Source: Methylobacillus gramineus (GTDB lineage: Bacteria > Pseudomonadota > Gammaproteobacteria > Burkholderiales > Methylophilaceae). Taken from it: a DNA stretch of 64,000 nucleotides. The notes below the pieces were generated by a model. It worked only from the letters and a program-made list of their open reading frames with translations, was not told the DNA's origin and searched no databases. Where the stretch lies: NCBI RefSeq assembly GCF_020532675.1, contig NZ_JAJAVE010000003.1, forward strand, positions 186,001 through 250,000. The letters run 5' to 3'. Below, in pieces: positions 1-3,382 of the stretch. Made by a program: the position numbers and the translations under genes. The first letter of the stretch is position 1. Every line of letters begins with the position of its first letter.

Positions 1-324
1 CGCCAGGCCCAGCCGGTCCTGCAGGATGATGGCCGTGGCCGGTACCAGGTAATCAGGGGATTGTGTCACCACAATCAAGGCATCCACTTCATCGCGTGAC
101 CACTGCAGGTCGTTCAGCAGCTTGTCGGCAGCGTCGTATGCTAAATCAGAAAAGCATTGCCAGTCCGGGCATACCCGGCGCGTCTCTATGCCGATATTGC
201 GCACCAGGCGCTCACGTTCAGAGCGCAGGTGTGGCGGCACATCATTAACGTTGTGGATCACATGCTTGGGCACGCAAGTCGCCATGCCGGCAAAACGTAC
301 ATTTTTTAGCGTTGAAGTGGCCAT
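1..324 (-). CDS. 3-oxoacyl-ACP synthase III (KAS III/FabH-like), 3' part outside window
   Basis: About 108 N-terminal residues are visible. They begin MATSTLKNVRFAGMATCVPK and contain the VTQSPDYLVPATA stretch typical of KAS III thiolase-fold enzymes just before the active-site Cys, which lies beyond the window edge. The family condenses an acyl-CoA with an ACP-bound malonyl or acyl unit. The ATG at 324 follows the acyl carrier protein stop by 9 bases in the same frame, with no strong ribosome binding site, so translation is probably coupled. Family known, substrate unknown. Because it sits with an ACP, an aminotransferase and an OGT-like glycosyltransferase, it more likely makes an acyl group for a glycan or sugar than starts housekeeping fatty acid synthesis. 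The protein is incomplete because of the window edge, not a mutation. Confidence 0.85.
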   Translation of the reverse strand, partial: MATSTLKNVRFAGMATCVPKHVIHNVNDVPPHLRSERERLVRNIGIETRRVCPDWQCFSDLAYDAADKLLNDLQWSRDEVDALIVVTQSPDYLVPATAIILQDRLGLA

Positions 325-333
325 ATCGACAAC

Positions 334-570
334 TTAATTCAGTAACTGATAGAGATCGTTGACGGTGCTCACTTGCTTTAAGTGTTCGCCAGTAATGGTT
401 TTGCCGTATTCCATATCACTGAGGACAATCACGCCCAGCGCTGCCAGGGAATCCCATTCCGGCAAGTCCTTGAGGATGGTGTCCGGGGTGATTTCCACCG
501 CTTCCTGAAAGTCCACTGCGGTGATGAATTTCTCAATAAAGGTGTCGATGTTGTCCATGTTCATTCTCAT
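334..570 (-). CDS. acyl carrier protein (dedicated, 78 aa)
   Basis: A small acidic four-helix protein with the phosphopantetheine attachment motif EWDSLA; Ser41 is the predicted modified residue (here D-S-L-A rather than the D-S-L-D of housekeeping AcpP). Its start ATG overlaps the aminotransferase stop by 4 bases (ATGA), so translation is coupled; in-frame ATGs at codons 3 and 5 are possible alternatives. It is followed at once by the KAS III-like gene. Specialised ACPs in polysaccharide or glycosylation clusters carry acyl groups to be loaded on amino sugars; that role is inferred from context only. Confidence 0.88.
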   Translation of the reverse strand: MRMNMDNIDTFIEKFITAVDFQEAVEITPDTILKDLPEWDSLAALGVIVLSDMEYGKTITGEHLKQVSTVNDLYQLLN

Positions 571-1730
571 TTCAATTGATTGATAGGCGCGATATTCGCG
601 ATGGCGAGGCTCACGGCTTCTACTACATCGGTAATGTCTTGGTTCGAGATAAAGGTAGAAAACGGCAGCCCAATCAGTCCATTCGCTACCGCTTCAGCGA
701 TGGGGGTGGGTTGTTTGATGATGGGCGCTACTTTGGCTGCATGCTGGTGCAACAGTGGTTGATACCAGCGGCGAGTGGCAATCTGTCTATGTTGGCAAAT
801 CTTCTCCAGCCGGTCGCGCGCTTCTGCGGCCATGCGTACGCAGAAAATAGTCGGGGCCGCTAATCGTATGCCTATTTGCCATTGCAGGCTGTCACCACAG
901 CTATGTTCCAGGGCCTCACGGTAGTCGTGATAAATACGATGTCTCAGGGTGGCCTGGGCATCCCATTGATCCAGACTGGCATGGGCCACGGCCGCATGAT
1001 ACTCGGAAAGTTTGGCATTGCTGCCTACAAAGGAAAGGTGGCCGACCGGGAAGCCGGCATTGGCATCTAGGTTGATGCCAAAATTGCTCAGCTGGCGCAC
1101 GGTATTATTGACGGTGGCGTTGCCGCTGACGACTATCCCTCCCTCGCCTGCTGCAAGCGATTTGGTGGCGTGCATGCTATAAACCACGGGGATATCTGGC
1201 GCCTCTACCCACTGGCTGCCAAATGCTCCTGCAGCATCAATCACGACATGGATGCCAGACTGGCGCTGGAATTCACTCCAGCCCAGTGTATCTTGCGGCT
1301 GGCCAAATGCCGCGACCGCAAGCACGGCCTTTGCACCACTTTGAGTAGCCGCTTCTGCAGCAATGGCCGGTGTAAGCAACCAGCTATCTGGGTCTATATC
1401 GGCAATCACGGGAATATAGCCCGCGCGGATGATGGTGGTAAGGGAGGCGACAAATGTCAGCGCCGGGACGATCACCTTGCTGCCTGGAGGCAGGTCCAGA
1501 CTGCTGAGCACCAGCTCCAGGCCAAGCGTGGCACTACTGGTGGTGGTGACATGCATGGGGTGGCTGCTGTGGACTTCAAACAGCGAGGACAGGCGCTGTT
1601 CCAGTGCGGTGTTGAGTGGGCCAAAATTTGAGTAGTGGCGGTTCTGGTCCAGCTGGGCGAGATAAGGCGCAAGTGAATCCCGGTCTGGCAAGAGCGGAGT
1701 CAGAAGCGGGATGGCAGTACGCACACTCAT
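567..1730 (-). CDS. DegT/DnrJ/EryC1/StrS-family PLP aminotransferase
   Basis: 387 residues with the fold-type I aminotransferase pattern of the DegT family: N-terminal substrate segment with NFGPLN near residue 35, cofactor Asp165 in VVIDAAGAFG, and Schiff-base Lys190 in SMHATKSLAAGEGG. Members usually aminate keto-sugar nucleotides, but some act on other keto compounds. The start overlaps the stop of the OGT-like gene by 4 bases and its own stop overlaps the ACP start, so the genes form a tightly coupled operon. Substrate cannot be read from the sequence. The product may feed the acylated amino sugar suggested by the ACP and KAS III neighbours. Confidence 0.88.
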   Translation of the reverse strand: MSVRTAIPLLTPLLPDRDSLAPYLAQLDQNRHYSNFGPLNTALEQRLSSLFEVHSSHPMHVTTTSSATLGLELVLSSLDLPPGSKVIVPALTFVASLTTIIRAGYIPVIADIDPDSWLLTPAIAAEAATQSGAKAVLAVAAFGQPQDTLGWSEFQRQSGIHVVIDAAGAFGSQWVEAPDIPVVYSMHATKSLAAGEGGIVVSGNATVNNTVRQLSNFGINLDANAGFPVGHLSFVGSNAKLSEYHAAVAHASLDQWDAQATLRHRIYHDYREALEHSCGDSLQWQIGIRLAAPTIFCVRMAAEARDRLEKICQHRQIATRRWYQPLLHQHAAKVAPIIKQPTPIAEAVANGLIGLPFSTFISNQDITDVVEAVSLAIANIAPINQLK

Positions 1731-3382
1731 TTGGATTGTCCTTGTGATGGCTCATGGGCCGCACGTAGCTGTTGCAAGTCATTGGCGTATGGCGCCTGCA
1801 CCATGAGGAATTTTGCCTTGCCCAGCAGGTAATTGAGCCATAACTGGCGATAACTGGTTTCCAGGTCGCGACAGCGGCCTGCATAGTCCATCAAAAGTGA
1901 CTTTTGCAGCAACGGGCGTGCCCGGCTACGGAACTCAGTCAGTAATTCCGGATGGTCAAGCAGGTGCAGCACCTTGGCAATATAGGCTTCCTCATCATCG
2001 GCAATCCATTGCTCCAGACCCAGGCCTCTCAGTATGGTGGAGGTCGAGGCAGAAACAGCATCAGTGGCGTTCATGGCCACGATCGGTAGCCCCATCCACA
2101 AGCTATGCAGCGTGGTGGTACCACCGGAAATCGGGAAACTATCGAGCGCAATATCCACAATATCGCCACGGGACATGAACTCCTCCATGGATACTATGGG
2201 CGAAACGATGATGCGGTCCAGGGGCAGTCCAAGTTCTACCAGACGTGGCTCTATCGTATGCACTGCATCGTCAATGGTGGTTTCTTGTACGTGGAGAAGC
2301 AGTTGAACATCTGGTCTGGCTTCCAGAATGCGTTTCCACACAAGCAGAGTCTGGTCGGTCAACTTGCGTGAGCTGTTGAGCGATCCCAGTGTAGGCGGGT
2401 TGCCCCGCAGCATTGGAGGGGCGGCTTCCAGCGGCGCATTGGCCGGAGGAATATAACTCGCCATGCAATGCAAGCGGAACAGTTTCTCTAGATAGAATTG
2501 CTCATTACCGAACGGATCCATGCCCCAGTCGGTGAGGCGGTAATCCATCTCTTTCATGCCCAGGGTACTGCCGATATAGCCCAGCCAGGTAACTTGTACT
2601 GGGGCTGCGCGTCTGGCAAACACATAGAGGCGATGGCCTTGTGTGTGACCAGACAAATCGATCAGGACATCAATCTTTTCCTTGCGGATCAGTTGGTAAA
2701 GCGCATCGTCAGTAATTTGGGAAACATCGTGCCAATGTGGTACCAGTATTTTCAGGCGCTTAGTCGTTGCATCCTGTTGTTTGGAGGTGGAGAACACATG
2801 CACGTCCACTTGCTTGGGATCATGATGGGCAAACACTGGCTCCATAAAGTAAGCCACGGCATGGTCGCGCATGTCACCTGACACATAGCCTATGCGCAGT
2901 ATGCGGTCTGGGGCGCGGTCATGGTGGAAGGGCCTGCTGTTGACCAGGGGATCAGCAAAACGCTGTCCCCACTCACGGTAAAGGGCCAGTTTTTTCTGGG
3001 GGTCAGGGCGGGCAATGGAGTGGATATTGGCGCGATCCAGTACAAACGATGAGTTATCGGGCTGCATCTCTACTGCATGGTCGATGAAGGCGCAGGCTTC
3101 TTCCAGTCGACCCAGATAGAAATAGGAAATGGCGAGGCCGTAAATGGCCTGCAGATTACCGGGTTCCATGCCCACGACAAACTCCATGGTTTCTGCTGCC
3201 TGCTGGTATTTCATGGTGCGCAGGAAAAGATTGCCTATTTTGAGCCAGATGGCAATCTGGTTGCTGCCCAACTCCAGGGCTGCAGTGAATTTATAGAGGG
3301 CTTCAAGATCATTGTGCGCAGCTTCGGCGTCAAGGCCGGCCTGAAATAACTCTTCGGAGGTGGGGGATGGCTGCTGTGACAA
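1727..3382 (-). CDS. TPR-containing O-GlcNAc transferase-like glycosyltransferase (GT41/SPINDLY)
   Basis: 551 residues. The first ~115 are tetratricopeptide repeats (pattern A-x-Y-x-L-G at residues ~40-115). From ~165 come the two Rossmann-like lobes of GT41: a VSGDMRDHAVAYF segment, then DLSGHTQGHRLYVFARRAAP, and the UDP-sugar-binding C-lobe with FGSLNSSRKL and DSFPISGGTTTLHSLWMGLP. The family transfers a sugar to Ser/Thr of proteins, in bacteria mostly of unknown targets (adhesins and flagellins are precedents). The start is TTG at 3382, supported by AAGG 8 bases upstream. It is the first gene of a four-gene operon. The number of TPRs is low compared with eukaryotic OGT. Confidence 0.88.
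   Translation of the reverse strand: MSQQPSPTSEELFQAGLDAEAAHNDLEALYKFTAALELGSNQIAIWLKIGNLFLRTMKYQQAAETMEFVVGMEPGNLQAIYGLAISYFYLGRLEEACAFIDHAVEMQPDNSSFVLDRANIHSIARPDPQKKLALYREWGQRFADPLVNSRPFHHDRAPDRILRIGYVSGDMRDHAVAYFMEPVFAHHDPKQVDVHVFSTSKQQDATTKRLKILVPHWHDVSQITDDALYQLIRKEKIDVLIDLSGHTQGHRLYVFARRAAPVQVTWLGYIGSTLGMKEMDYRLTDWGMDPFGNEQFYLEKLFRLHCMASYIPPANAPLEAAPPMLRGNPPTLGSLNSSRKLTDQTLLVWKRILEARPDVQLLLHVQETTIDDAVHTIEPRLVELGLPLDRIIVSPIVSMEEFMSRGDIVDIALDSFPISGGTTTLHSLWMGLPIVAMNATDAVSASTSTILRGLGLEQWIADDEEAYIAKVLHLLDHPELLTEFRSRARPLLQKSLLMDYAGRCRDLETSYRQLWLNYLLGKAKFLMVQAPYANDLQQLRAAHEPSQGQSK

Follow-up and report, generated by a model that had tools for sequence, protein, structure and literature searches.

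A SPINDLY-type glycosyltransferase gene opens a probable flagellin-type glycosylation island in Methylobacillus gramineus

Four genes head a probable glycosylation island

The subject of this study is a 64,000-nucleotide stretch of the genome of Methylobacillus gramineus (C3:186001-250000; genome of 3.05 Mb in 4 contigs), referred to here as the window. It begins, on the reverse strand, with genes for an OGT-like glycosyltransferase, a sugar aminotransferase, an acyl carrier protein (ACP) and a 3-oxoacyl-ACP synthase III (KAS III). We propose, at a probability of roughly 0.75, that these four genes form the 5' end of a PAK/viosamine-kind island for flagellin-type glycosylation, which would build an acylated amino-sugar glycan on protein, most likely on flagellin. 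A preliminary description of the window had suggested that the OGT-like enzyme transfers a sugar carrying an acyl group made on the ACP, and had taken acylated protein glycans of this origin to be poorly described. The latter opinion is not supported, since such glycans have already been published for the flagellins of Pseudomonas syringae and Burkholderia cenocepacia (PMC3927599; PMC12355684; all papers are cited here from the parts of their text that were available).

The gene at the head of the cluster (1727..3382, minus strand) begins with a TTG codon and encodes a 551-aa protein in which N-terminal TPRs (TPR_19) accompany a Glyco_transf_41 domain (PF13844; 155 bits against a cut-off of 25), which places it in family GT41, the OGT/SPINDLY type. 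Its closest solved relatives are 5djs (2e-79), tabulated as a TPR_2 repeat protein and which we take to be the Thermobaculum OGT, and SPINDLY (9e-70); OGT is also among its sequence relatives. Residues H174, H246 and K340 are unchanged in 10 sequences and presumably match, by analogy, the catalytic residues of OGT, and the enzyme is predicted to transfer a sugar onto a protein side chain. The second gene (567..1730, minus strand) encodes a 387-aa DegT/DnrJ/EryC1/StrS aminotransferase (PF01041, 200 bits) with the motif HATKSLAAGEGG and with Lys190, presumably the pyridoxal phosphate lysine. Its best NCBIfam model, DesI, scores 151 bits, far under the cut-off of 650, and we assign it the role of VioA. 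The dedicated ACP (334..570, minus strand; 78 aa, with Ser41 in a DSL motif) has no Pfam match at E<=0.001 and no NCBIfam match at E<=1e-5 and was recognised by profile matches, predicted fold and motif. A profile of 16 homologues finds solved ACPs (best 2lml, E 5e-5). The predicted fold has a mean pLDDT of 86.8, and its best PDB matches are ACPs, with E-values that are weak throughout (best 0.004, none <=0.001) and TM-scores by query of 0.59-0.71 among the 50 matches listed. The window holds the N-terminal part of KAS III (1..324, minus strand), which starts at 324, runs about 728 bases past window position 1 and has 350 aa as a whole. Its ACP_syn_III domain and the C-terminal domain of that family (PF08545/PF08541) are over cut-off, and C120, H266 and N296, which we take to be the catalytic triad, are kept in 11/11 sequences.

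The preliminary description had the four genes overlapping or nearly so, and this is correct: the glycosyltransferase and aminotransferase genes overlap by 4 bp, as do those for the aminotransferase and the ACP, and 9 bp separate ACP from KAS III. Its family assignments are likewise borne out by the Pfam and profile evidence. Conservation was followed in two samples, 100 genomes of relatives (G numbers, with the own genome as G000) and 80 named loci (L numbers, used also for stretches of the G genomes). The latter are the best 80 of 199 relatives from a pattern-based contig scan with KAS III alignment; 25 Xanthomonas, 6 Pseudomonas, 6 Massilia, 4 Delftia and 4 Methylophilaceae loci are among them, and four also belong to the nine island-bearing relatives described next. 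KAS III had matches at 1e-20 in 92 of the 100 relatives, in most cases with the 26-35% identity that ordinary fabH would show; identity was at least 56% in nine relatives and 41% in one (G019). In each of the nine family relatives that have a close KAS III, tblastn placed OGT, aminotransferase, ACP and KAS III in the same order beside thiG-apaG, with an OGT 54-86% identical to that of the window. Gene order was read by tblastn because maps based on open reading frames (ORFs) of G+C-rich loci miss genes under longer shadow frames; the ORF-based map lost the ACP in G038, G049 and G056, and tblastn found all of them. In the named loci, at most 35 bp, measured between aligned ends, separate ACP from KAS III in 80/80, and the D-S-L motif is present in the ACP homologues of 80/80. 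Since ACP adjoins KAS III in every named locus and the order is the same in 9/9 relatives, the four genes and their succession are confirmed as real and not due to chance.

The cluster beyond the window

Beyond position 1, where the preliminary description had advised a search for acyltransferase and flagellin genes, we found a VioB-type acyltransferase within a long cluster; the flagellin gene lies on another contig. The cluster measures about 25 kb, mostly past window position 1, and is on one strand except for one gene. KAS III is followed by two short-chain dehydrogenases/reductases (SDRs), a VioB/NeuD-type transferase, a Rieske oxygenase and a second hexapeptide transferase. Further on come a Rieske-less oxygenase homologue, an FkbM methyltransferase, a GT2-type protein, an MBL-fold/GT2 fusion and a cytidylyltransferase, then a 2-hydroxyacid dehydrogenase, an SDR, another FkbM protein, a weak methyltransferase match, a 653-aa protein and the one opposite-strand gene. 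The last protein, of 1,176 aa, matches GT2 families and not GT41. The Pfam scan covered 20 island proteins, two of which matched nothing, with the opposite-strand gene outside the 20; flanking genes (thiG, apaG, mltA and others) were named by inspection, without family search. With 173 bits, the VioB-type transferase passes the threshold of 160.8 bits that NCBIfam sets for NeuD/PglB/VioB acetyltransferases. Aminotransferase, ACP, KAS III, reductase-type SDR and VioB are thus found together, as in islands of the PAK/viosamine type, and the 1,176-aa protein provides the same cluster with a large glycosyltransferase, probably of the VioT/OrfN type.

From the gene content, gene order, conserved residues and homology given above, we infer the acyl length, the identity of the sugar, the target and the division of steps among the transferases as follows. 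RmlB, encoded elsewhere in the genome and over its cut-off, would provide dTDP-4-keto-6-deoxyglucose, which the DegT enzyme would aminate at C4. On the dedicated ACP, KAS III would produce a chain of the acetoacetyl type, and one or both SDRs would reduce it to 3-hydroxyacyl-ACP. The SDRs match broad SDR models, below NCBIfam cut-offs, one of them titled enoyl-ACP reductase; no dehydratase or second ketosynthase family was found among the 20 island proteins scanned. The VioB/NeuD-type hexapeptide transferase would then transfer the acyl chain to the amino group, so that the product would be dTDP-4-(3-hydroxybutyrylamino)-4,6-dideoxyglucose or a closely related compound, while the Rieske oxygenase, the second hexapeptide enzyme and the FkbM methyltransferase may decorate the sugar. 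In this genome, the SPINDLY-type GT41 enzyme and the GT2-type enzymes, one of them VioT-like, would build the glycan on protein, most likely flagellin.

Association with flagellin

The fliC gene was found within 10 kb in 46 of the 80 named loci, and the same holds for 37 of the 60 loci of 21 kb; Xanthomonas accounts for 25 of the 80. By genus, it was present in all Xanthomonas (25/25), Delftia (4/4), Paracidovorax (3/3) and Paraburkholderia (3/3) loci and in 2/6 Pseudomonas loci, and was seen in 0/6 Massilia, 0/2 Variovorax, 0/3 Oxalicibacterium and 0/4 Methylophilaceae loci, within the stretches examined. As a control, ordinary fabH was looked at in 53 genomes, own included: in 0/53 is there a listed flagellin-domain gene within 11 kb of it, when the stronger flagellin matches are used. 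Among the family relatives, a flagellin-domain match (E<1e-20) occurs in 9/9 that carry the island vs 21/50 others (Fisher p 0.001), or in 9/9 vs 25/50 (p 0.004) when four weak cases are counted as positive, both values ignoring kinship and genome size. Of five same-genus relatives, G004 is the one without flagellin, and it is also without the island.

Several observations weigh against an acyl-sugar island that serves flagellin. Here the island is on C3 and flagellin on C1, so the flgL/fliC linkage, which is common though not defining, is absent; no listed flagellin lies near the island in the nine relatives, and 34/80 named loci have no fliC in the stretches examined. In G019, a relative without a flagellin match, a more distant cassette that has no OGT sits in what looks by inspection like an O-antigen cluster. 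The island aminotransferase is just 27% identical to that of Pseudomonas PA7, and the sugar may therefore differ from the one made in PA7. Because the SDRs match broad models only, the role of ketoreductase is assigned by position. Finally, P. syringae and PAK proteins are reported to share 12-52% identity, and the full structure of the PAK glycan to be unknown (PMC3927599).

By inspection, no glycosyltransferase is among the immediate neighbours of fliC in this genome. The G019 cassette (L058; G019:C1:706000-724000) is a distant ACP-KAS III-SDR-SDR set with aminotransferase, VioB-like and Rieske genes, and the 18 kb fetched around it contain no OGT. Given its O-antigen-like surroundings and the lack of a flagellin match, an acyl cassette of this sort may have a role in polysaccharide too.

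Alternative transferases and targets

If the island makes an acylated amino sugar, which enzyme transfers it? The OGT could prime the protein with an ordinary sugar, to which the 1,176-aa VioT-like transferase would later add the acylated amino sugar, and we give this course of events not far from an even chance. It would follow P. syringae, in which VioT, of 1,173 aa, transfers the acyl sugar (PMC3927599). A VioT-like gene closes the island in M. gramineus, as a homologue does in G001, G003 and G005, and the M. gramineus product shares 64% identity, across 1,173 positions, with the PA7 protein that precedes fliC. On the other hand, no VioT-like gene was seen in the fetched stretches of six relatives that keep OGT and the acyl cassette (G002, G020, G021, G038, G049, G056). 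Likewise, the 30 named loci with GT41 contain no VioT-like match above 38% identity, a threshold set by us, within the stretches examined; three Paraburkholderia loci have one at 33-34%. Methylobacillus itself has both genes, spaced too wide for the span of these loci.

The remainder of the cluster varies among the nine relatives, and three of their islands are compact. That of G020 consists of OGT, aminotransferase, ACP, KAS III, two SDRs, VioB, Rieske, hexapeptide, Rieske, hexapeptide and FkbM genes, followed by a catalase-like gene, and those of G038 and G049 appear to stop after the second Rieske gene. Pfam was run on four island proteins and three neighbours of G020 and on two island proteins and one neighbour of G038; other genes, including all of G049, took their names from similar genes of the window's cluster. 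On this basis no second glycosyltransferase was recognised, and the OGT seems to be the sole recognised one in the three islands. It is in G020, G038 and G049 that the preliminary idea of the OGT as acyl-sugar transferase is favoured, because the OGT is the only recognised transferase there and no VioT-like gene was seen; for the window itself it is weakened by the VioT-like gene at the cluster end and the use of VioT in P. syringae. We put forward only tentatively that GT41 itself uses an N-acylated (3-hydroxybutyryl-type) dTDP-amino sugar to modify flagellin directly and that the compact Methylophilaceae islands are complete one-transferase systems. To our knowledge, GT41 donors are UDP-GlcNAc, UDP-Glc and GDP-fucose, and an acylated dTDP-amino sugar is unlike these. 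The compact islands lend themselves, by their simplicity, to asking whether GT41 accepts acylated amino sugars.

Across genera, presence was counted by tblastn at 1e-6, and the counts are lower bounds because 20 of the 80 named loci are shorter than 21 kb. ACP was found in 80, VioB in 77, the aminotransferase in 73, SDR1 in 72, Rieske in 68, the second hexapeptide enzyme in 56, VioT-like in 34 and GT41 in 30. The GT41 gene is within 500 bp of the aminotransferase gene in 22 of the 30 loci that have it, and no GT41 was found in the 25 Xanthomonas and 6 Pseudomonas loci within the stretches examined. Many versions of the island outside these two genera therefore pair a GT41 gene with the aminotransferase gene. 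In three of the 30 (L063, L082, L115) the only GT41 match is nearer to a second GT41 of the M. gramineus genome than to the island OGT, and L072, L098, L105 and L113 have matches of both kinds. This second GT41, of 698 aa, lies outside the island (L007:10991-13087, minus strand, equal to G000:C1:760991-763087). GT41 apart from the island is common, since 58/59 family relatives match GT41.

We think a role of the cluster in O-antigen, capsule or exopolysaccharide, with the OGT a bystander or a modifier of other proteins, unlikely, although the G019 cassette and the genera without a nearby fliC speak for it. Flippase, polymerase, polysaccharide ABC transporter and lipid-carrier sugar transferase families, the marks of an O-antigen or capsule cluster, had no match at E<=0.001 among the 20 island proteins scanned. 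The OGT, moreover, belongs to the unit in 9/9 relatives, and islands of the PAK and P. syringae types act on flagellin (PMC4020848; PMC3927599). That the acyl sugar goes to another protein, such as a pilin or an outer-membrane or cytoplasmic protein, is similarly improbable: GT41 enzymes can modify many proteins and the family shows no linkage of the island to flagellin, but linkage in many genera and co-occurrence within the family argue for flagellin.

Other features of the island

About 4650-5635 bases past window position 1 (L005:12365-13348, minus strand) lies a second ring-hydroxylating oxygenase, of 327 aa, which resembles the neighbouring Rieske oxygenase. It is without the [2Fe-2S] domain, a clean in-frame loss, and keeps the His motif, which we take to be that of the mononuclear iron site. 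Candidate explanations are a decaying duplicate or a partner subunit fed by its neighbour. Among the aligned relatives none was seen to have a Rieske-less version in this position; in G002 the frames are broken, its Rieske genes (L056, G002:C22, about 119261-122196) being in several pieces through real decay or assembly error.

The fusion of an MBL-fold hydrolase-like domain to a GT2 domain (L005:6912-8609, minus strand) adjoins the PseF-like cytidylyltransferase, the 2-hydroxyacid dehydrogenase and an SDR, a module that only G001 and G003 share among the nine relatives. The cytidylyltransferase, for which PseF is the best model, below cut-off, led us to consider a nonulosonic-acid route within the island, and we rejected it: no island protein scanned matches NeuB. 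A NeuB gene is present elsewhere (C1:581 kb) and is possibly linked to the island. Base composition (G+C 53.3% in the island vs 52.0% in the rest of the window) gives no support to a foreign origin, and within the window no match passed the gathering score of an Rfam family.

Comparison with known glycosylation islands

For the a-type flagellin island of PA103, nine genes with PAK counterparts are given, namely orfA aminotransferase, orfB ACP, orfC 3-oxoacyl-ACP, orfD reductase, orfE transferase, orfF 2Fe-2S, orfG acetyltransferase, orfH methyltransferase and an O-antigen biosynthesis protein, in a list that ends with fliC (PMC4020848). The order aminotransferase, ACP, KAS III, reductase, VioB/OrfE, 2Fe-2S, acetyltransferase, methyltransferase and large glycosyltransferase is common to PAK/PA103 and Methylobacillus, which has additional genes (PMC4020848). 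Our Pseudomonas comparison rests on PA7 sequences and, for PAK, on the gene list. In PA7 the cassette sits between flgL and fliC, in the order flgL, aminotransferase, ACP, KAS III, SDR, VioB, FkbM, Rieske, hexapeptide, a 1,173-aa glycosyltransferase and fliC; by its place and size, the 1,173-aa protein is probably the OrfN/VioT counterpart. Identity to the island proteins is 68% for ACP and 71% for KAS III. Unlike in Methylobacillus, FkbM precedes Rieske in PA7, and the cassette is at fliC rather than beside thiG. The Methylobacillus island also differs from the PAK/PA7 type in its GT2, MBL-GT2, cytidylyltransferase and 2-hydroxyacid dehydrogenase genes, and it is headed by a GT41, which was not seen in the six Pseudomonas loci.

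The viosamine island of P. syringae pv. tabaci comprises vioA, vioM, vioT, vioS, vioB, vioR and acp and lies away from fliC, between glutamine synthetase and histidine kinase genes (PMC3927599). By gene list, it has the same enzyme set as Methylobacillus and is equally unlinked to fliC, with no GT41 among the seven genes listed. VioS, as KAS III, and acp were assigned by homology (PMC3927599). Its flagellin product, determined by mass spectrometry, is Qui4N(3-hydroxybutyryl)2Me, a methylated 3-hydroxybutyryl viosamine (PMC3927599; repeated in PMC3958885); the terminal modified viosamine is also mentioned in PMC8364246. The vioA, vioB, vioT and vioR mutants lose the modified viosamine on flagellin; mass spectrometry is reported for vioR and vioM mutants, and earlier vioA, vioB and vioT mutants are cited (PMC3927599). 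In B. cenocepacia, flagellin bears Qui4N(3-OHBut), like the product proposed for Methylobacillus, according to a review table that cites an earlier paper (PMC12355684). These mutants and this glycan lend support to the part of the preliminary idea in which an ACP-borne acyl chain on an amino sugar ends on protein.

In enterobacterial flagellin glycosylation islands, SPINDLY-domain GT41 was found in 198 strains, and ACP genes in 72 and FabG in 71 are noted apart from it (PMC4875605). The available part of that paper does not name KAS III or state that GT41 and ACP occur within the same island; its GT41 proteins mostly carry methyltransferase domains and its glycosyltransferase families are mutually exclusive (PMC4875605), whereas the Methylobacillus island has GT41 and GT2. 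In open-licence papers, whose silence says little, we found nothing on flagellin glycosylation in Methylobacillus. Acyl-sugar flagellin islands are thus already known from Pseudomonas, and GT41 in them is less documented. What is new here is the methylotroph setting, the frequent pairing of SPINDLY-type and aminotransferase genes, and compact islands with seemingly one transferase, suggesting that a flagellin acyl-sugar pathway, described in pathogens in the papers cited here, extends to methylotrophs.

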